DNA from: Haliotis asinina
Lineage: Eukaryota; Mollusca; Gastropoda; Lepetellida; Haliotidae
Assembly: GCF_037392515.1 (NCBI RefSeq)
Contig: NC_090291.1
Span: 20,438,001-20,502,000 of the forward strand
DNA length: 64,000 nt
Direction of reading: 5' to 3'
The position numbers and the translations under genes are program-made. Positions 1,984 to 61,424 of the stretch are shown here, piece by piece. The notes below the pieces were generated by a model that had not been told where the DNA came from, did no database searches, and saw only the letters and a list, made by a program, of their open reading frames with translations. The stretch's first letter is position 1. Every line of letters starts with the position of its first letter.

Positions 1984-4583
<2,600 letters not shown>

Positions 4584-24061: not shown

Positions 24062-27000
24062 CTGAAATACAGTATATTCACTTCTTAGTTCCTTTGAAAG
24101 ACAGTATTTCATCATTGATTACATGCATTTTTACAAACAACCAAACACAACAATGTTCATTTTTTAACCAGAAATACTTAAGTAATGTTAAGGTACCAAA
24201 TAATATACATCATGAGTCTAATAAATCATTTTATAATTTCAAAATCACTCATGAATGAGCTAGGGTTATACCTAAAGGTGAAGAAATACCAAGATGTTTC
24301 ACAAATCCAGTTGTTGAATTACCTGGTAACAAAGTAGCCATCATCAGATGTGAGGTGGCAGGCTGAGAGATGAAGATCCTCTAGAATACATCCATCCTGA
24401 AGTCAGAACAACACATCATTACACATCACATAACACCAACAAGGGTGGTAACATACAAGTCGGATAGTTGCATAATGGCATCCTCCACTGGCCCTCACAT
24501 CACAAACTGATACATCATTCAAACACTTGACTGACTTCAGGTTCTCTTGATGCCATTTCATGTTGTTATTTCATATTCTTTACTAAATTTACCGTGAGAG
24601 ATGTCTAGTGGCAGCACATGTTCCTCTGCTGAGGACACCACCACAAATCAGGTGAAATTGACAAGTCAGACTGCAGACACAAGGTCAGCAGTTAGAATCC
24701 TGAGTTTCTGGGGCTAAAATAACTTTTTAGAGGTAATTAGCAACCTTGGTTGTATACTCCCCAGGGAGTTGAGCATGAAAATCAAGTGCATGAAGCTCCA
24801 ATGATCATTGTATATATACTATAGTGCCATGAACATTCACTTGGAGGGTGAAATAACACTTGATTTTAATCAGATTGATCTATATATACATATGGAAATT
24901 AATTAAGCAACACCAAATTCAAAGACACATAAAAACTTAACAAAGTTTAACGAAGTAATTTTGATGATTGATTATTCAATTTTGATGTATTGACATACAG
25001 CATGAGCTTTTCATGGGTTGATATGACGCGCGTGAAGCTTGCACAGCGCACGTGCATTGCTTTAACCTCAACTTTCGAAAAATGCACTTTTTCCCTGGGG
25101 TGTTTACAAGCGCAGGTTGTCGATTGCATTCGGTTTTTCATTCATTTCAATGTCATGGCACGTAGGAAATTATCAGAGGCCACTCGTTGGCAAATAATCG
25201 GCATGAGGAATGCTGGTATGTCTCTAAGACAAATCGGGACTCAAATCGGACGACATCATTCCATAATTTCAAAACTTTTGAAAAAATACCGGGCCACTAA
25301 TGAAGTTAAAGACCTGCCTAGACCAGGAAGACCCAGGAAGACCACAGTCCGGGAGGACAGAGCTTTACTGAGACTTGTACGGCGCAGGTCCTTCGACTCG
25401 AGCTCTCGGTTGAGACAGGAGTGGCTTCCAGGGAGACCCATCTCGAACAGGACTGTTCGGAATCGTCTGAAAGCTGCAGGATACCGGGCAAGGAGGCCAA
25501 TCAAGCGACCCAGACTGTCTCCAGCCCATAAGGCAGCCCGACTGGCCTGGTGTAATGACCGTTTGCACTGGAACATTGCCTCTTGGAGGAAGGTCCATTT
25601 CTCAGATGAGAGCCGGTTCTTGCTGCACATGGTGGACGGTCGTACTCGGGTCTGGAGGCAGAGGAACACAGCAATGGCTCCACGGAACATCCAGGAGACT
25701 GTGGCCTTTGGGGGAGGTTCCGTTATGGTATGGGGGTGCATTTCCATGAACTGCAAGTTGGATATCATTACCATCCGTGGCAACCTTAACGGTGTTCGTT
25801 ACCAACAGGAGGTTCTTGACAGGGCTGTGGTACCTCATTTTGAGAACCATCCTCTGGCAACGAGACCCATATTTATGGACGACAATGCTAGACCTCACAG
25901 GGCGCATGCTGTAAATGATTTTTTGCGGCAAAATGCAATTGACAGAATTCCATGGCCTGCCATGAGCCCTGACCTCAACCCCATTGAACATTTGTGGGAC
26001 TTTATTGGCCGTCGTGTGAGGCAGAGAGACCCACCAGTCCATAATCTCAACGAATTGACGGCTGCCCTGCATGAGGAGTGGAACAGGATCCCCCAGAATC
26101 AGATCCGGAGACTCATCCAAGGAATGAGGAGGCGTCTGGAATCGGTGGTGCGTGCGCAGGGAGGACACACTAGATATTGATGAAAGTCGGTGTGCAGACT
26201 CTCAGATGACTGTTCTTTCTTTCCATGTGACATTTGTGTTAATACACCTGACAACAACGTCTGTGGATGAATAGTAAATTGTGTCCATTTTTTCATGAAT
26301 TTAAGACAGTTTTAAGAATTTGGATTTCGTTGCAATAAAGCAAAGTCTTGATACTTTTTCCCTTTAAGTTGTTTGTCAGAGATCGTCTGTTGAATAAAAA
26401 AGTGTCAAACTATATCAACCCGGCATATTTTGATTGTCAGAACACTTCAAAGTTGCTCCAATAGAAAAAAATGGGGTGTTGCTTGATTAATTTCCAGGTG
26501 TATATAACAAACTGAAAATTCAGAAACACAAACTATCTGTCCCTCATAAGCGGATGCTTTCAGTCCCTTGCAAACTGCAAGGGTTTAATGAATTCTTCTA
26601 AGGAGACAGATGATCTCAAGTCTCGGGCAGTCGGACAGTTTCTCTCCACATATTCCTACGAATCACGAATGTACAAATGGTACACCTGGCAGAATACCTG
26701 CGTTAGATACTGCTGCAGATGAAGAGTGAGATGACTGACGCTAGTGCCAGCATGTGTCTCAGACAGGTCTAGGGTTGTCATCCGCTGGTGATTGAGGCAC
26801 TTCAACAGCTGCTCCAGGCCCAGTGAACCAAGTCGATTCTTGGATATGTCCAGCTTTTGCAGATTGGACGCTGAAAATATGACCAATAAATTTCGTATCA
26901 ATCTTGAATCATTATAATGTTATGACTATCATCAGGTATGTATTCACACAGAACCCACCTTGCATGGCATCTGCAAGCACCAGTCTGTTCTGGGAGAAGA

Positions 27001-30000
27001 ACTTTGCTGTCAGCTGGCAAGCAGACAATGTGAGGTCAGTGAGAGAAGGGAGACAACTCAGTAGGGTGGCCAAACAGCTGGTAGAGTTATCTCCTATGGG
27101 GTTGTGTGAGAATGCCAAGGTTACAAGAGACTGAAATTGATATAAAAAATGCATGTGTCAGACTAACATGCTCATAAACTATTTTGTCCTGATTACTATT
27201 TACATTGGAATGCATGAAAAAAATGTAAGAAGTACAACCCATGGCTAATAGATCAGAAAACTGGTATAATACTCAATTTTGGAAATCTAACAATCACAAA
27301 GAAATAAGTGAAACAAGACACTATAGTGTCTCTGGGACAAAGAGCAAACGCTGGAAAAATTTAAACATCACATCATAACTCTCAAAAATACAGCGTCTGC
27401 TTTGAAAACATTTGCAATTTTTACCCCATGGGCAGACAGTATTTTACATTCAATGGTTTTATTATGATTGCAATAAATCACATCTTGTGGGAGTTTAAGG
27501 TAGAAAACCTTGTGCTTCTCTCAATGCATTATATAGGCAACATGGCATCCAAATATGTGTCAATGACTTAAAGATCTGTCAATTCCAAAATGTGGAATAC
27601 TTTTAAAAGCTATACTGTTTGTTTCATATTTAATATGTGCAGGTTTCAAAAGCATACCACAATCTTGGAACATATCTGCGTAATTTGTGATCTTCCTTGT
27701 CCCAACACTGGAAAAAATAATATCACTACAAACTTCCATGTTCCCTATCTGATCCTACAGTCAGTATAGCCCAATTTTCAATCTACCTGTACAGGCCTTC
27801 TGCCCGACTGGTTTCCTGCCTGCAGTGTGTCGGTGAAGGTCTTCAGTCCAACAGCTGTGATATTATTCCCACACAGATTCAGATATGTTAGACCAGGCAG
27901 GGAACACACTGACTTGGACAGCGTGGACATTCCATTGTCACCAAGACGATTGCCTACAGCAGTATGTATACTTCCAATCAAAATCACTTGATACCACGGA
28001 GAAAAATTAATGGTCTGAACTAGGAAATTTTCTCTGAACAAGTAAAGTCTGGTAATTAAAAATCACAATATTTCTTTACAGCGATGTTTATGAAATCAGA
28101 AATATCAATGATCTCATAATTTCATGATTGAATTGTCAAAAAAAATGTTATGGGCACATGGCCTATGGTTTTGCACTAGACTTGAAAGGCAAAGTACATT
28201 CATTCAATGTTGCATATCAGAGGACTTCCAGGAAGGTCATATTTCCTAGAATCAGATTCACATATATTATTTAAATTTATCTTCATCAATGATTCAAAAA
28301 ATGTAATTTTCTGAATAAAATTAACACTTTATACTTATTCTGACTCATGTCTCCCTCTCCTAATCCCTTGAAGTTTCCTTCTTCAAAGGAGGACGTACAA
28401 TGTTGCTCACCCACAAGTACCTTAACTTTCTTCTATATCTGTGCACCAACACTGGTCACATGTTCGGCTATAATTGTCACTCTCTCTGATAAATCGTAGC
28501 CCAAACACAAAGATTTTCTGGGAAATCCAAGTGACATGAAAAGGAGGTTGGGAAGGTTGACCTCATGAGTCAGGATAAGTATAAAATATCAATTTTACAC
28601 AGAAAATGACATATTTATCCTTATCCTGAATCATGCTTAATTGCTAATAGTATCACCACTGCCAAACACCATCTCCTCATCGACTGCCTGATGCTTGTGA
28701 ACACATGGTTAGGGATTCTGTGCCATTGCTCTTGTAAGGCAGCACCAAGTTCCTGAAAATTCTGAGGTTGGCTCCTAAGACCACAATGCCTTCTCCCAAG
28801 TGCATCCCACACATGCTCTATTGGATTAAGGTCAAGGGACCTCAATGGCCAGTCCATGATTCCAGCGTTTTGAAGGAAATTTTGTGTCAACATAGCGGTA
28901 TGCGGCCGAGCATTATCATGCTGCAACTGTAGACCTGGACCATGAACCGCAATGAAAGGAACGAGTTCAAGGCTGAGCACCTGGTCGCGGTAAGCAGCAG
29001 CTGTGAGGTTTCCATGTATGACCAGAAGTCGGGAACAGTTGTTCCCACAAAAAGCACTCCACACCATGCAACTTCTGCCATCGAATCTGTCGACTTCCTG
29101 TACACAAAATTGGGCATACCGTTCACGACGTCGTCTCCAGACGTCCACAAATCGGAGGGTAAACCTGGATTCTTCGCTATAGATGACTCGATTCCAGTCT
29201 GTCTGGGTCCATCAGAGGTGATGTTGGCCCACAGCAGACGTTGACGTTGATGAAATGGCGTCAATATTGGCCCATGATATGGACGTCGAGAATGGAGATT
29301 GGCAGCCCACAACAGATTTCGAATGATCTGTGAGGTCTGTCACAAGTGGACGACCCTACCTTGGGCGATCAGGAGCGGTGCCAGTTTCTTGTAGACCTCG
29401 CCAGTCATACACAGTATGATAGTTGCATCCCATTGCTCTTGCGACGTTAATAACTGATCTTCCCGCTTGCAACATCCCAACAGCATGTTCACGCTGCACA
29501 TTTGACAACTGTGGCATTTAAAGTACCGTTAGAACAGTGGTTTAAAAGTGTTTTTTCAATTCTTGAGGCCCGTGCAAAAAATGATTTGACACTAACGTCA
29601 TTTGCATGACAAATGGATGGGTTTGAGTGGGTTTTGCTAACGTTTTTCTAGAGTCGAAAGATAGGGATCCCATTTCGGATACATAGATGTATTGTCACAG
29701 AAAATATTCATTATTTTTAAAAATTACATTTTGTTAAGTTTCTTTTTTGGCTCAGTATATGTATAAGCTTAACGATCACTCATGCTAGTCTGTCTGGATG
29801 TGCGCATGGACTCTCAAACAACCACTTCGATTAGTGAAGATACCAACCAGTCATGTGATAAGGGTGAGCTATGTTAGCATCTTTGAGGAACAATTAACTG
29901 TTGTGCTACAAGTGGGACGAAATGGTGAATGCCTGAGACATCCTCCGAGGCAGTGTCTCTGAGATAGTGGTTTCCAAACACCATATCTGATTTCCCAAAA

Positions 30001-33000
30001 CAGCCCTCCATGATTGCTGTAACTGAGCAATTTCCATGTAAAGCAAGGGTAAAAGCCAGAGCTCTCACTTCGCGTGGATTGGAGGCTTGTGATGGCACAA
30101 AGTCCTGCTGCTTTATATACTTGTAAAATAACAGTTCTCATCCAGACAGACACTGTTGTTCATGAGATTTCTGTAGATGTCTCTGCAGACAACGGAATAA
30201 ATAGACACTTAAATTTCCGACTCCTTGTTCGTGTCCATTTTACATAAATCTTGAGTGCTCTGACTGGACACAAAGATAGATGCTGTATATCATGCACTGT
30301 AGATAATGCTGAGACATGTCAGTGTCTATCAGATTGTCCTTGCAACTGATTTTTAACAATGAAATCCCAACATAGTCCCAGGTGTATAATATCACGATTT
30401 GTGGAGTTGAAACTAGTTCTCACAAAATCCAGTGCTTGAATTTGTGCAAAACCTTCCACCGCAGATAATACCATTGTTATATTACCAAGATGTTGTGCAG
30501 CAATTTCCATACTTCCTTCATGTTGGTGTAAGCTGACTGTAATAATCGGGTTCCATGAAATATGGTGCACAGTGACCATGATACTTGGCTCCTTAAAGGA
30601 GTAAGTTCTGCTGTTGTAGGTGCCAGATCTTCTGGCATTAAACCCCAAACATTCGTATGCTCCTTCTACATTTAGGTCTAGGCGTCGGTCTAGTAGAACA
30701 ATTCACATTTTCCTAATGCGTTCAAGCATGTATGCGCACATGCTCTTGTGAAGGATCTAAATCCATATTCAATGATGACGTCCCCAAACTCAAACCGTAG
30801 TGTCCTGATGAAGTATGCAGGGAACCCTTCCTGCTACAGTAAATCTCCATGTGTTGAAAGACAGGATGTGTTGATGCTGATACTTTGTCACAGTATGGAT
30901 ATCCGTAGATGCAGGCCTGCGTTGGTATCCCTGTCCAAGGAGTCATCTCTGCAAGTGAACCTGCGAGTTGTCCAAAAGGGTTCATTGAACATCGTCCCTA
31001 CACCGAACATTGGACGGAAAATCTAAATCCAGTCCATTAGTTATACACGAAGTTACTTCCTCATCGGAGAGAATTACCTTTTTTTCGTCATCCAAGAATC
31101 TATCTAAGGAGTCATGATGATGAGTATCGCTGATCGATTCCCTGCATGGTATAATCATAATTTACTTCCCTTCACGCAACATCCATGTGTGAATCCTTGC
31201 GTGTATCTTCCAAGCATAAATCCTCCATGTGTAATTCCAATCCGCATCTTCTAAACATATATCTCAGGCACCTTCCATCCTGCGCGAACCTTGAAAACCA
31301 TAATTCCTGCGTGCACTTGGCGAAGGCCTCCTATATCTGCTTGAAAATTGATCCAAGCACGAATCCTTAGTACGTAATTCCTTACGTTCATTATCTACAC
31401 TTATGTCCCTTTGTGCACTATCTTTCCTGCCCAAATCTTCAAATTGGTAATCCTGGCACGTATTAGGCAAAGGCTTCCCATATCTGCGGAAAGATTGATA
31501 CCTCGTTGAGAAATCCTCCTGTGGTGAAGAGTACATGCATGCAGCTGTAGGTGTTTACAAGGGTGAAGTAGGGTGAAGATGATATATAATGTTGTCGTTG
31601 ATGACAAGATCGTCTGCATGGAGAATCTTTTCTACTGTGATGTTGATAATTTGTAGAATCTCCTCCTTGGAGAACTACTGTTGAGCCAACATTCATGAAT
31701 GTATCCTGACTCAATGGGGATAATCTATGAGAACATAAACATTTGCGTATGTCCTCTTCAACATATAACTGGGTTTGAGTGTCAGTTCATGAGCGATGGC
31801 AGTCGCCACAGGTGCCTTCGTGGCAGACCTCTCTTCGGCGAAGCATCAATCCATTAACGACCTGTGCATTGCGTGAACTGTTCCATGAAGAGTCCAGGAT
31901 CAAAATCCTGCGCTGAACATGTAGACCTTTGTGAAGATAAGTATTCTTCTGAGGATACCAAGGTCTCCTCTGACCTACAATGTAGGTGTGTTGTATTGGC
32001 AGAGTTGCCATCCTTCATTGAAAGTGTGTGCGCCAAAGGCAAATCATCCAATGATTTATGTCGCGGAAAAGTTGCAGTAGCAGTCCTTGCCTTCATGCAG
32101 GTTGCAATCTGTTGGCGAGAGGTACTTCCGGCAGAAGTATTTCATCAAAAATTTCCCCTTCACCCAGAGGAACAAAATCCTGTGTGCAGGATCGAGCCTC
32201 CGTAGTAGCAGATGATAACATCTTCATCTGCGATGAAGAAGATTTAGACCGCTTACTCTTTAATACAGAGGATTCCCTCAACGTAAATCTCTTCTTAGCA
32301 GGTGCAGCACCAGTCACCAAATCAGAGTCACGCTTCTGAGACACGCCCGACATGTAACTAGAATTACAAATATCAGCGGTAGTAATCAGCATACGGTTCT
32401 TAGCACAATCATTCGCTTTACCTGACATGACTGATGGATAGTCTTATCTTGTCCCTTGCAAATCTAAGAATGCCAAACAAATAGATTAAATTCTTCTGAT
32501 GATAAATGTTGACAAAGTTCACAGTGGACGTTTAGAGCACAGACCGTAGGGCAAGATGGACATAATCAGTGTGGATCCGCCACTGAAAACTGGTATCTAC
32601 AACTCAAACAAGTTTTCATCAAAATGTATGAACCATGATTACATGATTACGTAAATTATACACAAAATGTTTACATCATACAAAGAAATATAGAGACTGA
32701 AAACCATATACAACAACACTTGGTTAAAAGTCACAAAAAAAAAGAAAAAAAAAAGAAAAGAAGAAGAAATAAAACCAAGAGAAAAGTGGTGTACAGGGAC
32801 CCCAAGTCACACACACAACCTTCCTTTTGGGCAAAGAAGGAGAGAATGACAATCATGGCCGGTCATGTGACCAATAAGGGTGCCAAAACATAGAAGAAAG
32901 GGAGGGTACTTGTGGTGAGCATGTTTTACACCCTATGAGTCAGGTTAAGGAAGTATGCATGGCTTTCTATCACTGGCTACCAAATGACTTACTCTGCAGG

Positions 33001-36000
33001 TCGAGGTGCTTCATGTTGTTCTGCCCCTCCAGGGCGCGACAAACAGGGTGTATCTGGGTGGACCTCAACGCTAGACTCCGCAGAGATAGACAGCCCGTGC
33101 TGTCACATGACTGCAGCAGGGTGACGATGTTCCGATACTCCACTTTAACACAAACATGTAATAGAATTAAACTCTTCTGACTCTCCACTAGAACACAAAC
33201 ATGTAATAGAATTAAACTCTTCTGACTCTCCACTAGAACACAAACATATAGAATTAAACTCTTCTGACTCTCAACTGGAACACAAACATACTACAGCATC
33301 ATAAACTGAGACCATTTTTTCATCTCCCTAAGGCACAAGTGATTACTGATTGTAAAATATTGAAATAAATACAAGAAACAAAATCTTGGACTAACTGAAG
33401 TGCAATCTAATGAACCAAATAACAATGAGCGAGTCCACTGAATCAGAAACATCTTGGTCATATCAATACCTGTTAAATCTTTTGTTTATTTGTTGTTTAA
33501 TGCCGTACTCATGATTATTCCGCCTATATGGTAGAGTTTTCTAAATAATCAAGTCTGGACCAGAAAATCCAGTGATCAACAACATAAGCATCAATCTATG
33601 CAACTGGGATATGATGACAAGCAAGTCAGCAAGTCTGACCACCCGATTCTGTGAGTCACCTCTTATGACAGACATGGGTTGCTGAAGACCAATTCTAATC
33701 TGACTAATCCTCTTACCTGCCCTGGTCAGCCTGCAGGCCTGCATGTATCTCTCATGTAGAGGCTGCATGTCCCAGCTGTCCACCACTGCATCTACCTGCA
33801 CACAGTGTTACAAAATACCTTACTTACTTCAGGATGACTTCAAGCACAGTGCCATCTACAGTAGACCCTTATATAAAAAAAATTGTATATCACAATTAGA
33901 TATGACATTTCATCTTGTCTGGGTATTTTTTAGAATGCTTAAAAAATATATTTTTCTCAAAATTGATTCCCAGAATTGGCTCCATAGGCACTGGTCATGT
34001 TTTATGCTCCCTATGCTACTTTTCAATCAATGAACAACTTGATGAACAATCAAGTGGTTAACTAAGCATACTGAACAGCAAAAGAAGTACTAGAGTTTTT
34101 TCTTCAAGTTTTTCAATAGGAAACATAAATATTAACATTTACTAATATGAGATTATATTTTTCGAAAAGTGCATTCCTTTTGCTGTTCTGTGCAATTCAT
34201 TTTCCCATTCTACTTTTACTTCTAGACAGTACTGAATATAATGAAATACAAATTGTACTGAAATGTTCAGAATTTTACAAGTTCCATCCACTGACACTTC
34301 CTCCAAGAAGAGACCATCACATGTCTACAAGTCGTGATAAACAACTTCTTACCACTTCCTTGTTACTGAGAACCATACACACAACATCGTCTGGCGACAG
34401 GATCGCACCATCGCGAGTCCTCAGTGTCACCAAAGGTTTCTTCTGGTGAATTTTCTCATACCGTCGAGCTACATCCTGGGCCAGCCAGGAAATGCTCTGA
34501 TTGCTACAATGAAAACAATCAATCAGTGTTTTAATGTAGTGTGTCTGCAAACATACAAAGTTTTACCTCGTATGGGTATGGGCAATGTCACATCAGACAA
34601 GGTAGATGGTAACTTTCTGTGCATTATCTGCAATTTTAAGCTAAGAAGCAGCAATACAAGACAATACAGAGCATCTGGCATTGTGCATGATTCTGTGTTA
34701 GTAACTTTCAGAGCACAATCTGTGATTTTACTTAAGAAACATAAGATATATATAAGATACTGCACAACTGTCACTCAAAATAATTGACCTGGAAATCTTT
34801 AAACAACAACACAAGGGAGTTATCAAGTCAGAAATCACTTTGATCAATCATTTGTGGTTTTCAAACAAAGGGCAGCCACTTTCCAGCAACATCTTTAACC
34901 ACACTTTATCTTCAATATTGATGCCTTTGATTTCAAACATGTGAATATAACTTACGCATCTGGGACTGGAACCAACAACATCTGACCATCAATAGTGACC
35001 TTGAGTCTCATGACCCCTGTGGAGGTCAAGGCCTCACTCTGATGACTAGATGAAGGAGGACAAGACATTGTTGAGAACCCATTCTGAGAAGGTTCAAACT
35101 CAATGTTTTCTGTCTGGTATATAGAAGCACTGTTTAGTGTACTTCTGTTTTCCTGAGTGGTAAAGTTTGTCAACTTCATCTGCCTCGGCTTAGACTTAGT
35201 TGAGAGTTTTGATCGATTTGCTAAGCTCGGATTCTGTATGATACCGTCATTATTAACACTTGAACCTGACACCACGAAATCATCCGTAAAATCATCAACA
35301 TTTAGCACATCAGGGTTTGATGGAGCTGCTTCCAACAAGTTATCACTGGCTCCACTATCTTCATCAACATCATCAATCACAAAACCTTTCCTTTTGGACA
35401 TATCACATTTTTGTCGTGTTGAATCTGCTAACCCAGACTTCCGTGACCCTGAGGTTGAAAACACTCCTCCAATATCCAACTTCTTCCTTTTCTGAGGCTG
35501 AATGTCATCAATGAGCCAGTCATCGCCAACAAAGTCATCTGCATCAAGCAAAGCACTTGAGTCTGTGTGACTCTTGGGAGTGACAGAGTTATGATATGCT
35601 GGTCCCCGAACAGCAGCTCTTTGAGATGCACTACCAATACCCGTCATGGCATGGCGGTAGTTGTCTGTAGCACTTCTGTGTGGGCCCAAGTCCTCGAGGC
35701 GAGGATTTGGGTAGAATTCCTGGTTGGCCGTTTCAGACAGGACAGCCACTTCCTCATCACTAAAACACAATGGCTCTATGTAGTAGCAATACAACATCTC
35801 ACACAATATCAGAGTTGGGACATTCCATACCATGTCATATGACAATGAACTTTCACAAACATTAACCAACCAGTGAAATGACTGAAAAGACCTCACCATT
35901 CCCCAGTCAGAAATAAGAAAGACGGCTACTATTTCAGTCTTAAACTGGTGACTCAAAAAGAAAATATATTTTGGAATATCTAGTGATGGCCCTGAATGAC

Positions 36001-39000
36001 AGCATTTCCCAGGCACTATGGAACATCGTCTACTTCAAATGTTCATCCAACTGAACCATGGATAGACAATTTCAGCAGAATCATCAAGCTTGAAACTGTT
36101 CTTCAGAATACTCTGCATTGCCATTTTGGAGATCGCATTCTTAACAAACACTTATTGGCTGTAACTCTCTCCATAAGAAAGCAACTCAAGCTGGAAGAAA
36201 GGTTGTTCCAATATAATAGGATGTCGTGTTTAGAAGTAACAGTGGCTCAGTTATGATGTGATTACATGTTTGATAATATTTACTGGTGCCCTTCCCCAAG
36301 TTTTATCTTATTTCAGATAAAATATGATTAAGATGTTTTCAAAATAACATACAGGGGAATCAAAGACAGTAAAAAGGTATTCTATGAAAACCTTAGCTCA
36401 CTAACCTGTTGCCTCCTTCACTGTCTGAAGTAATTACAGCACGGGATGACTTACTGAAAAAATAAATATTTAGAAGAAACTAAGAACTATTGCTCAAAAC
36501 GCTGTGAAAGATGTCAGTTAACATGACCAATAAGTATAAGTCAGGCTTCAAATATGAAACATTTTCACCTGCCACCAGTGGAGGTCCTTTTCCTCTTGAC
36601 TGTGACCTTGACCTCTGGAAATGTCTGACTTTCTCTGCTGCTGTCATCATCATACAGGTCAAGGGCAGCTGGAGGTCGTGACTTGTCTAAAGATCTAAAG
36701 TTAGACCTTGGCATCTGACCACCTGTAATACAAGAGTGGGTGATTGTCTCTGTGTTCCTCTAAGCATTATTCCACTGAAATTATATTTACTAAAAGTATC
36801 AGAACTGATGCTCAAACCTGACTCTGAGTTCATCAGCAGAAGATTATTAAACCAATAAAATATCCAGAAAAACATCATCCTTTCTATTAGTTTCCAGTAG
36901 GACACAAAGATATTTTTTGTCAAACCATTGATGCTGATTGTTATAATTGTGTGTGGCAGGTGTCTGGTTATAAGGTGTGCAGGGATCAAGGTGGGAGAAT
37001 AATTTCATAACATCAATAAGTGGCAGAGGCATTTCTAGCACAGCACCATTAGGTGTCACTCCACACAAGATTAGAGATAGCTCCCCTCACCTTTCATCCC
37101 ATCTGACAGCATGGCCTCCACATGGGCGTATGACAGCATCACCTCTCGGCTCAATGTGTCCTCACAACGCTGATACCAAGCTCGCAGGCAGTCAAGTGCT
37201 GTTTGACCCTGAGGTAAAGAATCGTTTTCTGATATAAATCTATATCAATTAATCTGGGACACCAGAGATGGACTTCACACATTGTACCCATCAGGGGAGT
37301 CAAATCTAGCATGATGAGTGGTTGCTTTAACAACTAAGGTAACCCGGAATGCCAAGTGACACAAACCTTTTGGAGAAAATTACAAATTTGGCTTAACAAT
37401 TCATTCCCTCATCCATTTCACATTTGGTTTGGTACTCTACATCGAAATATATTACTAAACCACATCATCTTTGCAGCCAAGACACTTTTACATATGTAGT
37501 ATTAAGAATATACCTCCCAACATAACTTCATTTACAAAAACCCTGAAAGAAATATTCTTTGTCGAGAAGCATATATGCCAAAAAAATAATAAGATAGAAC
37601 ACTTCAATCATTAATGGGGCCCTCTCTTCCCAGTACTTGGATAAATTAGAATGTATATATGTATCTGTCTTGTACCACCTATATCAACCTGTATATGTCT
37701 ATTATCATAATGTCAATATAATATCAGTACATCCATCGATATGTACCTCTGCTTTGTACATGACAAGTAATCACATGAATCAGTCAAAAAAAAACAACAA
37801 AAAAACTAAGGTAACCCACCACCCAGTATCAGTACATCGACATTGATCATACATGTATTAATATGATACACTAGTGTTAACCATTCAAACTCCTTCATCG
37901 GTTATGGTTCACACTTGGAAAATCGCAAAGGGTGTCCATGTTTGTTGGTTGGAGAGGTTTAATGCGTCTATAAAATGAGCTGTGAACAATTCTATAAGAT
38001 GGCAGCTTGTAATCAACACTTAAAACCAGTCCCTGGTCTGCAGTGTGTGCGGAAAGCTGCATCTGCATCTAAAAGCATCCGTATTAGTTAAAAGATGAAA
38101 CAACTCTTAAATTTCTGAAAAAATGGACAAATGGCAATGCATGAAATGTGGGTTCATTTGCTTAAGGCAAAATTTGGGACACTATCAGTCTATTATGTGT
38201 GAGAGTTATCTTACAAATTGGTCATCAACTAAGTGAGTGAGACAGTGAGTTTAGTTTTACGCCACACTTAGCAATATTCCAGCTATATGGCGGCGGTCTG
38301 TAAATAACAGTGTCTGGACCAGACAATCCAGCGATCAATATCATGAGCAATGATCTGCACAACTTGGAACTGATGACATGTGTCAACCAAGTAGGCAAGC
38401 CTGACCACCCGATCCCGTTAACTGCCTCTTACAACAAGTGTTGCCACTAATATGGCAATGTCCCTCCCCACATAATCACTATTTCACTACTATTCACATT
38501 TTCTTCTTGCTCACACACAAGATGTGTGAAATGACTGGTGTCTGGATAATCACCCAAAGTAGGCTGTCAACAAAATCCAAAATAAACTGTAGAGGTTTCT
38601 GATTCAATGATTATAGTCCTCCTTGGGGTAAATATAGCATAGCAGGCCATTCCATCCTCATACTGAATGACTGTTGAACCCCTCTGAGAAGCCAGAATTG
38701 TGTCTGCAACTGATGCAGGAATTCCGCTTGCTTGGACAGTGGACTGCTGCCCAAAATGAGGGAGATGCATCTGTTTGAACTGAGACGGATGGAATCAGGG
38801 TGTCTAGAGAAAAACCCCTGGATAAATTCCCGATCTCCATCCAAGACCGCAAATGAGGAAGTGCCCACTCAGGACTCTTGAGTGTCACCTCGTAACTCTC
38901 AGAGTGAGACCACAGCTTAGGTAGAGAATGCTGTATACGGTGCATCCTCAGGCGTGCACACCACATCCACTGTCACAGTCATGTTGCCTAGCAACCGAAG

Positions 39001-42000
39001 CCATGTCCAAGCTGACACCCAGGACGACTCGAGAAGCTGAAGAACAGTCCTCTGGTCTTTGATGACGAGGAGAGGAGCAAGGGAGGCAATCCGGAACAAG
39101 CTCTGATTTCTTGAGATTGATATCCAGCCTAGTTTCAGTAGGATATCCATCACTTGATGTGTGGAATTCATGTTTGACTGCAGGCTGAGTGCCCTGAGCA
39201 ACCAGTCCTCCAGATACGAGTAACAACACCTGCCCCGAGACCTGGCTAATTGAGCTGGAATCAACATCAGTTTGGTGAACATCCTTGGCGCCTTGGAGAG
39301 CACACAAAACTGGTAGCACATCCCATCTAGGAGAAGCGAAGGTACTTCATGAGCCAATCCCCATTCTCAATACAGTAGAAAAAGGGACAGGGGTAGAAAC
39401 AGGAGGAGCAGGGGCCTCCTTGATGACCTTAGCCTTTTTAGGAGCTGACTCAGTAGGCAGCTCCAGACCCCTTGTCTTTTATGTGTGAATGCTTAGACAG
39501 GGGATCCTGGGCACCCTGCCTTAATTAAGATAGTGTAAAAAAAATGAATCTGCTCTTCTTTGGGCGTCAATACTGCACAAGGAACCCATCCGCCATCTAT
39601 ACCAGCACATGGCAAGCCGACAGGGATGGTTATGAGTTACAACAAAAGATGAAAGAAAAAATTCAGAAACTATCTCTAAATTGTCGGGGAAAAGAGAGAA
39701 CCATCCATACAGTAGCTGTTTCTGAAGCATTCACCTTAGCTCTAGTAGGAATTCAACAACTCTCTGGTCGATATGGATGTCTTGCCGGTCAAATGACAGC
39801 ATGGAAAGTGAGGTACAAGGTTACAGTGTAGAGTTACTTGCTCTTGGCTGTTGGGGGCCACCGGGGCCCTTCAGGTATTGTCTCACCACACAATAAAATA
39901 TTTTTTTGTTCTGTAAATATTCGTAGGGATTTAAAATGGACATTTAAATGCTTACAAGTACCCCAAGGAAGAATATATGAAAAAGAATGAGGACATTGGT
40001 TGAAATGTTTTATGAGATACTGCGCTAACATAAGTTCAAAAAGTTGACAAAGTGTCATGTTCACATTGATGTCTGCCTATTTCCCCAGTGTAGGCTGTCA
40101 CGAAATTTGAAGACATTTGGTTCAACAGTTCATCAGAGTTAACAAGAGTTTGAAGTGGTCAAAGACTCAGGGGTACCTTGCTGAAAATATGCTGCCCAGA
40201 TCAACTAGTGTCTGTGTAATTCCCCACTGTAGTCTGTCCCCAAATTTGAAGACATTGGGTACTACAGTTCGTGAAACATTGTTAACAAAACTGAATATAT
40301 AGTCCTCCATTCTGCATTCCAGCATAGGACAACCCTGGATATTCACAGTATTATCAAGTAAGTGTGAGTATATGTAACCACATACATATTTCACAGTGAG
40401 TGCCTTCTTGATCACCCGCCCTGTAAAGATCTGGGTTAGAACTGATCTTCAGTAACTTAAGTTTGTCGTAAGAGGTGAGTAACAGATCAAGTGGTCAGGC
40501 TCGCAGACTTGCTTGACACGTCATGGTATCCCAGTAGTGTAGATCGATGCTCATGATGTTGATCACTGGATTGTCTGGTCTAAACTTGATTATTTACAGA
40601 CTGCTGCCATATAGCTGGAATATTGCTATTTCACAACCAAATAACCAAACTACAAGCAATAAGCTATAACATGAGACAGCTGTCAACAGCTGTGTCATCA
40701 AAAATGTAAGATAAATATTCCAAGCTGATTCTAGATTCCTCTCGCCTCCGCATACATACATCATCATCCTTGTTGTGGATATTGGCCCCGTGTTGCAGAA
40801 GGATCTTTATGACCTCTGTGTTGCCGCAGTTGGCTGCATCAATGAGTGGAGTGATCCCACCACAGTGCTTGCCTCCTCGGTCATTGACAGTAGCGCCATG
40901 CTCCAGGAGGCACTTGACCACTTCGTAGTGATCATGGTTGGCGGCCTCATGCAGGGGGATCCATCCACAATAGTCCCGGGGGTTCACTGGATGGCCCTAA
41001 AATTCAGACAAATGATTCTTGTAACTGGGGAGAATGAGTATCCATGAATCTCGATGGGGTAGGGTTTCTGAAACTGATTGTGATACCTGTCTTGACGACT
41101 ACATGAAGAGTCAAGCACCCATCACTTTCTAAATTATGAAATATAGGGAAGAGGCAGGTCCTTATTCCACCAAGATATACTAGTGCTGAGACAATGATTA
41201 TGATGAAGGTTATATGCACTGCTATAATTGTGCTCAGAACAATTTGGCAAATGAAACCCTGGTTCTGATTCTGAAACAATCTTCTATATTGTAAACCGGA
41301 ATTATTCTGTGCCTAGAAAATTCTGCGTCAGTGTATGCCCAGCCTGTTGTGCAATGTGTTATTTTTGTGAGAGTAGTAGGCTTTACAGAAACAACATTGT
41401 TATCTAAAACTGCTTTGCTTACTACGATCAAAGAGACACAGGTCATTTATTTATCCCTTCGATCTCCACAGTATCAAATCAGTGGAACCTAACTAACGTA
41501 TGTTTGGGGTTAATCTATCCCTTTTCACAATGTCTGAAAACACTTACTACATCTCAAATGACCTTATTTTATCAACAGAATTTGAATTATATACTATGTT
41601 TTCACAATGTTATTGAAAAAAAACAAACTCTCATGCATCAGTAACAGATTCACATCACAGCTGTCAAAGAGCAAATTAATAACTAAACACAAAGAAAAAA
41701 CTGAAAAATAAAATCAGTAACAGTACTCATAAAAGTTGTCAAACATACATTACAACTTACTATTTCCATCTTTTTTGTGAGATTGTTTAATGTAATTCAA
41801 GTGTGACATCTTGGCTTCGAACTTCACACTCGGGCACAATATTTAATGTGAAAATACAAGCCATGAAACATTGTCACATCATATAGCACGGTATGCCTAC
41901 TAAGTTCCATAATCTACACACTGGTGTCATTTTTTGCCTGACAAGTTCAGAATAGCATGATTTTACCCAGAATCCAGAAATTTTCATTTACGAAGACAGT

Positions 42001-54682: not shown

Positions 54683-55231
54683 CTTCTTCCAAAATTTACT
54701 TGCCAAATTAATACATCAAGTATCGGCATTGCCTGGTGGGCGATAGGTGGCACTGTCTCCTTCGAGATAAACTTTCCGCCATTTTAATTTTCCCGGCGAT
54801 TTACTCTGCTCATGCGCATTTTCTTTAGAGTTATCTACCTTGCATTGGCAAGCGGTCTTTATAAGAAGAATGCTGTGAGCAACAAATCGTCTCCATAGTA
54901 ATATTTGAGCCCTTAGTCAATGGCACGAAGTGTCAGGAAAGGCTTTGGGCAGAAAAGCGTTGGCTTGTGCTTCGCAATTTCACAAACGAAGCAAGTGACA
55001 GGAATGTAGTGCAGTTTTAGAATGGGTCACCATTTTACTGAACAAAACCTAAGTTGAAGAATATTTCAGGTTCACTGTTTGTTTTATATGAGACTGGTCG
55101 ATAAGTTGAACAAGAGCAGCCAGTGTAGATGTGCAGCAGATTGTATGACATCTTGCATATTTGTAACATTCAAGCAGATTATTTTTGATCAGTAACAGAG
55201 CATTGGTGACACTTACACAGTCAAAGCAAAG
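54683..55231. promoter_or_regulatory. Shared TONSL/BBS10 promoter region
   Basis: The two start codons are 549 bases apart and face away from each other. Between 54770 and 54815 lie a YY1-like ccgccatttt, an E2F-like ttttcccggcg and an NRF1-like catgcgcat. These are typical of housekeeping or S-phase promoters. No TATA box is evident. Sites were found by eye. Confidence 0.55.
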
Positions 55232-57010
55232 ATGTCGAAAAGTAACTTACTCTTCCAAGTTAAAAGGGACATTGTTAGGACTATCTCATCGATTGTGTGC
55301 AAGTCATATGGGCCACATTGTCAGCAGACCCTACTGTGTACATCAACCGGCATGGTCATAGTTACATCAGATGGAATGTGCATACTTCACAGTCTCCATC
55401 TGTGTCACCCTGTCGCTATAGTGGTGGTGAAAGCCATCCAGAAACACCACCTCATGACTCGTGACGGAACAAAAACATTCTCTCTATATCTATCACAAGC
55501 AGTAACATATCTGGATAAAACACTTAACTGCTCCTTATCTACCAATTACGTTGGGACATCGGTTGATCAGCTCTGTTACACAACTGCACTGCATCTAATG
55601 AGAATTGAATGTGATGTTTTACCCCGAATTTGGAGAGAATTATCCCAGAATTGTATTGTTAAGCATGATGAAGGTAAATTGCCAGTGATCAAATTAAGAT
55701 CAGTTATAAACACATGCATGTCAAGCCATTTGACAAAACATAAAAGACATGTTCTATTAGAGTTAGTTTTAAGCTCTTTAGGGTTAAGTGAATCTGGTAT
55801 GTCCACAGACATTTCTGAAGGTGTTGTTAAAAGACAGGTGACATTTATGATTGACAACTTTGACTTCCTCCACTTCAAACTTCCCAAACAACTATATGAA
55901 TCATCATCGTTTCTACCAGGATTTCTGCTCAGGCAAGACTTTTTAGTGAAACACCCCAAGCTTGGTGAGGGTAGAGATATCAAGTTTCTGATGTTGTCTT
56001 GCTCTGTGGAAGGAAATTCACATGAAGACTCTGATGAAGTAGTTTTTCTGAAAGACAAGGAAGCAACATACACTGCTCTTTCGTACAGAGTAACCAGGGC
56101 AACCAAATACTTGACTGATCTCAAAGAGAAGGACGTGTCTTTGATACTCTGTTCAGAGACTGTTCCCCAGTTTGTAAGATATCTGTGCAGGGATTTGGGT
56201 ATTAGTGTCATCAGCTGTGTCGAACAGGAGGATATTCAGTTCATTGAAAGGATCACAGGAATGCAGGCTGCCACCTGTATCTCTTGTCCAGTTGACAGCA
56301 TGCAGACCGGACAGCTGTCTCATTGTGACAGGATTGTGTTAGGAACCCAACGAGTTGTTCATCTACAGTTCGCAAAGACTGAGAGTTTCATGATGCCAGG
56401 AACAATTGTCATAGCAGCACCAACTGATGGGCTTGTGGATCAGTTCAGGACTGCTGTGTATAAGTCATACAAGGCAGTTCAAATGTGCTTTGCTTTTCAT
56501 GTGACTTGCAATACAGATGATTCCTTAAGCAAGATTAATTGTCCAGAAAGGACTGAAGATCTCACCACATCTTCAGTCAGTGGAGAGTTTTGTGTTATCG
56601 GAGGAGGTGGGTTCTTTGAGCTCAGGACAGCAGGCATGCTGAAGAATCTATCCAATAATTTCACAGATGACAAGATAGGCCATGGATGTCGAGTCCTTCA
56701 TGATTGCCTGCTGTCTGTTCCGCGACACCTTCACAGACAGTTATCACAAGATCGTGGTACCGAAGGCAGAGACTATCTGGAGAAGCTTCAGATGTTATGG
56801 GCAACAATGGAAGAGGGAGGGGTTGCTGCTCTGGACAGGAAGGGGAGGATCTGTAACCCTGTAGACGCTGGTATACTGGAACCTCTTGCCTCCAAAATTT
56901 TGACCTTGACCTCTGTGGTGCAGCTTCTGCAGCAGCTGCTGAGGATCGATGCTGTTGTAAGTGTCCAGAAACTGGAAGCAGTTGAGATGTATTCTGATGA
57001 TGGTATATAG
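55232..57010 (+). CDS. BBS10: BBS10, chaperonin-like protein, single exon (592 aa)
   Basis: BBS10 works with MKKS, BBS12 and CCT subunits to assemble the BBSome, the coat that moves membrane proteins in cilia. The ORF is uninterrupted with an in-frame TAA 14 codons before the ATG. Matches to human BBS10 run from end to end: [16 protein letters not shown] versus [36 protein letters not shown] versus [33 protein letters not shown] versus [33 protein letters not shown] versus [20 protein letters not shown]. Human BBS10 is 723 aa; the shorter length reflects a reduced insert in the C-terminal half. A GGGGFFE motif matches the GG.FE of human BBS10. The ATP loop reads RDGTKT (77-82), where human has GDGAKT. 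The family call is firm. Confidence 0.92.
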   Translation: [592 protein letters not shown]

Positions 57011-60657: not shown

Positions 60658-60900
60658 GGAATCCCCTTCAGCTGTATTCGGCTGTATCATGGCGTGTTTT
60701 TTTTTGTATTCGTGACTACTCTAGCTTTAAGGCCACAAAATACATGTTTGGCGGAATCTCCTTCAGCTGTATTCGGCTGTGTCATGGCTGTACTCTAGCT
60801 TTAAGGCCACAAAATACATGTTTGGCGGAATCCCCTTCAGCTGTATTCGGCTGTATCATGGCTGTGCTCTAGCTTTAAGGCCACAAAATACATGTTTGAC
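60658..60900. repeat. 74-bp tandem repeat, three copies
   Basis: Copies start at 60658, 60753 and 60827 with ggaatc.ccttcagctgta and end in aaatacatgtttg. The first copy carries an extra T-rich insert and is 95 bases; the others are 74. Confidence 0.92.
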
Positions 60901-61424
60901 TGAATGACGAGAGAAGCGAGACTGCCAGGGGAATGAGGACACGGCACTCAGGGGAAGCAACACACAACTACAGAGGACCGATACACAAAGCTTTCGTAGT
61001 GTTAGTTGTCGCAACTATACAGTTTATCATATTCATAAATACATTGTAGTGCTAAGAATCGGGCAATAGAAGGGTAAATGACGATCACGAACGTGTCACC
61101 AAAATCATCATCAGGGCGAATCTCACATCTGAACCCACGATCAGCGGTTCCATGCATTCAGAACAGGAAAGTGCGGTTTAGTTACACCACACGACCCATG
61201 TGTTCCTCGCAGACATTGAATCTCAATCCCGTCAGATGCCCGGGACCGCGCCTCACTAAGCATGCAAGGGCATGTATGTACAGCGGTCGCTGTAAAAGAT
61301 ATAGAACTATGTTAAACATACGTGGGTTACGAAAGTCATAACTCAGATCGCTTTATAGAACAGGGACCAATTCGATTAATAATGTATAGGTATCATGAAA
61401 ATATCACTGAGTGTAAACAAGTTA

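Follow-up and report, generated by a model that had tools for sequence, protein, structure and literature searches.

Where does an exon begin when a minisatellite presents its 3′ splice site four times over? The question arises on the minus strand of a 64,000-nucleotide stretch of DNA (the window, that is, the whole stretch analysed), in front of an exon of a probable TONSL gene. The array there carries four acceptors that share one reading frame, and any insert arising from them would sit just ahead of the TONSL C-terminal leucine-rich repeats, the region that in human TONSL binds MMS22L according to the available text of PMC12478395.

The host gene on the minus strand

The gene is probably TONSL, a name that rests mainly on alignment to the human protein, for which an approximate sequence served as query. 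When joined, the following six exons form a single stop-free frame with leucine-rich repeats.

34956–35014 (−): 3′ part of an exon (six-exon join)
34353–34503 (−): exon two upstream of the studied exon (six-exon join)
33717–33795 (−): preceding exon, phase 1 end, GCA G then GTAAGA (exon joining)
32993–33142 (−): core of the TONSL-like exon, protein ending KHLDLQ, then donor GTAAGT (exon joining, alignment)
27787–27953 (−): following leucine-rich-repeat exon (SNRLGDNG...), beyond an intron of about 5 kb (frame, join)
26960–27130 (−): next leucine-rich-repeat exon (frame, join)

The joined protein shares 86 identical residues among 242 aligned with the approximate human TONSL query, with a score of 347 compared to at most 35 in 200 shuffles, and Pfam recovers its leucine-rich repeats (LRR_6, 9.6e-14). 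Both results support the original prediction of a TONSL-like exon. The Tonsoku-like name is absent among the 35 PDB matches of the joined leucine-rich region, and Pfam returned no match for the studied exon's own frame (32970–33290) or for eight of the nine other frames submitted. An ankyrin exon at 40760–40996 (−; Pfam Ank, 2.3e-19) matches the Tonsoku-like protein 5ja4_D in PDB (residues 1–73, E 8.6e-30); since this match ranks 55th among the best 60 of 327, it is insufficient by itself to single out TONSL. The frame at 38917–39366 was considered as a TONSL exon and rejected, as nothing useful matched it in PDB.

A 402-residue open frame (24972–26177, +) with Tc-type transposase domains (HTH_Tnp_Tc3_2, 1.3e-16; DDE_3, 3.9e-13) lies inside the TONSL-like gene, flanked by its exons near 26870 and 24396. 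Two frames at 28624–29339 (−), inside the 5-kb intron that follows the studied exon, give weak, below-cut-off Tc-type matches (HTH_Tnp_Tc3_2, DDE_3). Elsewhere, the window holds an intronless, chaperonin-like frame of 604 residues (55196–57010, +; Cpn60_TCP1, 2.7e-42) and a MORN-repeat frame (4056–4583, −) that we take to resemble the start of junctophilin; neither ARAGORN nor Rfam at its gathering scores gave a match in the window.

The minisatellite array at the exon start

The studied exon is preceded by a short tandem repeat, identified with Tandem Repeats Finder and a repeat finder.

33138–33289 (−): 45-nt minisatellite repeating the exon's 3′ splice site, spacings 45, 45 and 42

For this interval, Tandem Repeats Finder gives a period of 45, 3.4 copies, 92% matches, 3% indels and a score of 255. 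The unit spacings of 45, 45 and 42 given in the original prediction were recovered by the repeat finder, and the AG-to-AG distances, read in minus sense, are 42, 45 and 45 nt. Four AGs stand in register across the array, each accompanied by a branch-like site and a pyrimidine tract. Every unit had been described as placing TGGAG after its AG; three of the four do, while the most upstream reads TTGAG. The units 33232–33188 and 33187–33143 differ at 2 of 45 positions.

The array extends 5 nt into the exon beginning at 33142, a start placed by alignment. The exon part of the repeat is certain for TGGAG; of the following 10 nt, 6 agree with the unit, a weak match equalled by 2.3% of the window's 10-mers, or 5.2% by alignment score. 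On the intron side, flanking sequence above the first unit is as similar to it as 3.75% of 21,224 null windows are. Both array edges thus look like faded copies of the unit, but the two matches are weak, were picked post hoc and disappear over longer stretches (14% and 23% on the exon side, 46% and 78% on the intron side). A possible further copy in the next intron (32474–32499, −), before AG 32464, is left uncertain: its score of 33 was equalled or exceeded in 2 of 30 simulated sequences. The unit pattern has five matches in the window, three of them in the array, with 1.85 expected, and AG 32464 taken as acceptor would lead to a stop (read by eye).

Direct repeats of at least 22 nt, with copies at most 400 nt apart, form five families in 23700–46000, this array included. 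Two other minisatellites occur in the window, a large one at 292–1981 (53-nt unit, 31.8 copies, 95% matches), whose three minus frames are open for 251 to 378 codons apiece, and one at 60717–60905 (74-nt unit, 2.6 copies, 95% matches). Two further motifs, presumably repeats known from abalone, were also sought: a 32-mer with two window matches at no more than 3 mismatches (none expected), and a 17-mer with eight (0.25 expected). On the strength of these motifs we take the host to be probably a gastropod; the spliced genes of the window mark it as eukaryotic. A literature search on the two motifs found nothing.

We consider the array best explained, at a probability of roughly 0.7, as a mirage-type minisatellite, in which tandem duplication has brought the intron–exon boundary of the TONSL exon to four copies. 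One unit would comprise about 31 nt of intron end, with a branch-like TTTAAT, a pyrimidine tract and the AG, and then a short stretch resembling the exon start (TGGAG, perhaps some 14 nt). Such an array may have arisen by unequal exchange or slippage, and all four acceptors would be competent.

Reading frame and strength of the four acceptors

Each copy supplies one candidate acceptor. The assignments below combine frame and score, with alignment added for the last.

33275–33290 (−): most upstream acceptor, TATGTTTGTGTTCCAG then TTGAG; exon would start at 33274, gaining 44 residues
33233–33260 (−): second acceptor, TTCTAG preceded by a branch-like TTAAT; exon would start at 33232, gaining 30 residues
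33188–33218 (−): third acceptor, TTCTAG preceded by TTAAT; exon would start at 33187, gaining 15 residues
33143–33173 (−): exon-adjacent acceptor, weak TTAAAG preceded by TTAAT; exon would start at 33142 with no added residues, probably the ancestral site

The preceding phase-1 exon was joined to each of the 23 AGs between 33300 and 33100. Only the four array sites give stop-free, in-frame joins; the remaining 19 shift the frame and run into a stop. Starts at 33274, 33232, 33187 and 33142 add 132, 90, 45 and 0 nt, respectively, so that the 44, 30, 15 and 0 extra residues originally predicted hold exactly, and all four forms stay free of stops once joined to the five neighbouring exons. The minus frame through the units, also predicted to be stop-free, is open from 33290 to 32973, and the joined exons agree with an insert directly before the leucine-rich repeats. 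Another of the minus frames crossing the units is likewise open, for 41 residues, so openness of the units is not special. We rejected selection for the open frame, as 45 nt equally open in that phase accompany 52% of the 561 YAG sites that this strand carries in the gene region, and 48.7% of 18,016 reading windows are open. We estimate the chance that unit length and indel are both multiples of three at about 1/9, and the combined chance at about 0.06. The common reading frame of the four acceptors was probably kept by luck.

Translated pyrimidine tracts tend toward hydrophobicity. Here, the 44-residue insert has a GRAVY value of 1.08 compared to −0.16 for the exon, and its translated tracts are very hydrophobic (3.04 for the 14-letter tract). 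Against the approximate human TONSL query, the short form spans the junction ungapped and gives the best score, 347, which the addition of 15, 30 or 44 residues lowers to 339, 324 and 310. On this basis, 33142 is probably the inherited exon start.

Acceptor scores were computed from approximate human 3′ splice-site frequencies and are crude. From upstream to downstream they are 3.2 (33274), 1.5 (33232), 1.5 (33187) and −1.9 (33142), in line with the earlier view that the upstream acceptors are stronger than the exon-adjacent TTAAAG. Outside the array, eight acceptors of this gene that were picked by eye score between −1.8 and 4.4, and every one is a YAG. Site 33142, an AAG, is the lowest of the 12 sites scored (four in the array, eight elsewhere in the gene), yet it lies only 0.09 under the acceptor at 27130, which is taken as real. 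Site 33274 is the top-scoring acceptor between 33330 and 33090. Among 3730 minus-strand AGs, the array sites stand at percentiles 96.5, 91.9, 91.9 and 75.0. The scoring is not specific, since the frame-breaking AGs at 33110 (3.0) and 33327 (2.0) also score well. From upstream to downstream, yUnAy sites occur 28, 22, 25 and 25 nt before the four acceptors; the lower three have TTAAT 22–25 nt before the exon base with no AG between, and for the most upstream, TTTAT stands at 28 and an extra AG falls between the two, about 16–18 nt before the acceptor.

Use of the acceptors and relation to known minisatellites

How the duplicated boundary is spliced is a separate matter from its origin. Each upstream acceptor has its own branch-like site and a YAG, compared to the AAG at 33142, and we therefore tentatively predict mixed use, in which at least one higher-scoring upstream acceptor would serve in part of the transcripts; we hold this at a little short of even odds. 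An insert that keeps the frame would be easier to tolerate than one that shifts it. The weak AAG at 33142 speaks for use of the upstream acceptors, and the hydrophobicity of the insert speaks against their heavy use. The latter also suits a silent intronic mirage, with 33142 the sole acceptor used and the other copies decoys, as does the best fit of the short form to the approximate human TONSL query. The lancelet mirages, reported in the accessible text as not disturbing regular splicing (PMC3087553, PMC3902484), likewise favour a single acceptor. Such silence is a reasonable possibility that we rate below even, as it would leave the gene with the lowest of 12 acceptors while three better in-frame sites lie at most 132 nt upstream. 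In classical experiments with duplicated acceptors, the intron-proximal site was often preferred. This would suit an exonised array, in which 33274 or 33232 is constitutive and a hydrophobic repeat insert is a fixed part of the protein; the top score of 33274 and the open frame of every unit point the same way. Exonisation nevertheless seems unlikely, as it would place 30–44 residues where the approximate human TONSL sequence has none, and the stray AG stands above 33274.

More doubtful is the full proposal that four self-copied, in-frame acceptors are all truly used, one TONSL allele yielding 0, 15, 30 and 44 extra residues before the MMS22L-binding leucine-rich repeats and the set changing with repeat number between individuals; we regard it as improbable. 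The idea of a repeat that varies in the population or tunes protein length finds no support, as the open frame is near chance and the lancelet mirages, by the published accounts, leave splicing undisturbed. In its strongest form, a selected, copy-number-variable length tuner of TONSL, it could appeal to units and a single 3-nt indel that preserve the frame, but the equally open YAG sites (52% of 561) and a triplet spacing that by our estimate amounts to two one-in-three chances make it very improbable. An error of assembly in the copy number, suggested by the near identity of units 33232–33188 and 33187–33143 (2 of 45 positions different), is improbable too, since the copies are distinguishable (CCAG/TTGAG, a 3-nt deletion, CTAG, AAAG) in ways that a simple duplication error would not produce.

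Read as a mirage-type minisatellite, the array offers a natural experiment on the spliceosome's choice of acceptor, with near-identical tandem sites whose gradation lies mainly in the last bases. Should the host be a gastropod, such arrays would not be peculiar to lancelets, and the part they are proposed to play in intron gain would rest on a broader base.

Two human cases bear a partial likeness to it. The minisatellite of IFI6 (6-16/G1P3), as PMC4526556 summarises it from Turri 1995, has repeat units that act as alternative donors and give three mRNA species; like the TONSL array it offers several splice sites, but these are donors rather than acceptors. In human segmental-duplication genes, the text available from PMC2812944 describes minisatellite variation at exon–intron boundaries that alters splicing. 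A repeat-retaining transcript accompanies 66% of such boundary intron modifications, and the variable repeats overall average four 30-bp units. These differ from the TONSL array in belonging to recent primate paralogues and in being described mainly as forming new introns.

The closest relatives are the lancelet mirage minisatellites of Adh3, troponin C, the globins BflGb6 and BflGb9, and PGBD5, presented in the available portions of PMC3087553 and PMC3902484 as tandem repeats across an intron–exon boundary with repeated splice signals, a description that the TONSL array shares. The BflGb6 mirage comprises an intron 3′ end and the 5′ part of the next exon, and its cluster edges escape homogenisation (PMC3087553, PMC3902484, in part). 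As far as the accessible text of PMC3902484 goes, the Adh and TnC mirages yield no aberrant mRNAs, and the same is supposed for PGBD5 without transcripts across its repeats; the globin mirages are likewise described as leaving regular splicing undisturbed, and length instability is reported for Adh3 and BflGb6, with RT-PCR for globin (PMC3087553, PMC3902484, in part). The TONSL array, seen here in one genomic sequence, departs from these examples in its host, a TONSL-like gene of a probable gastropod, in its short exon part (5 nt certain, about 14 suspected), in an exon-adjacent acceptor that scores lowest, and in units of triplet size that keep the repeated acceptors in frame. It fits the published mirage kind, to which it adds a probable gastropod host and triplet-sized units.
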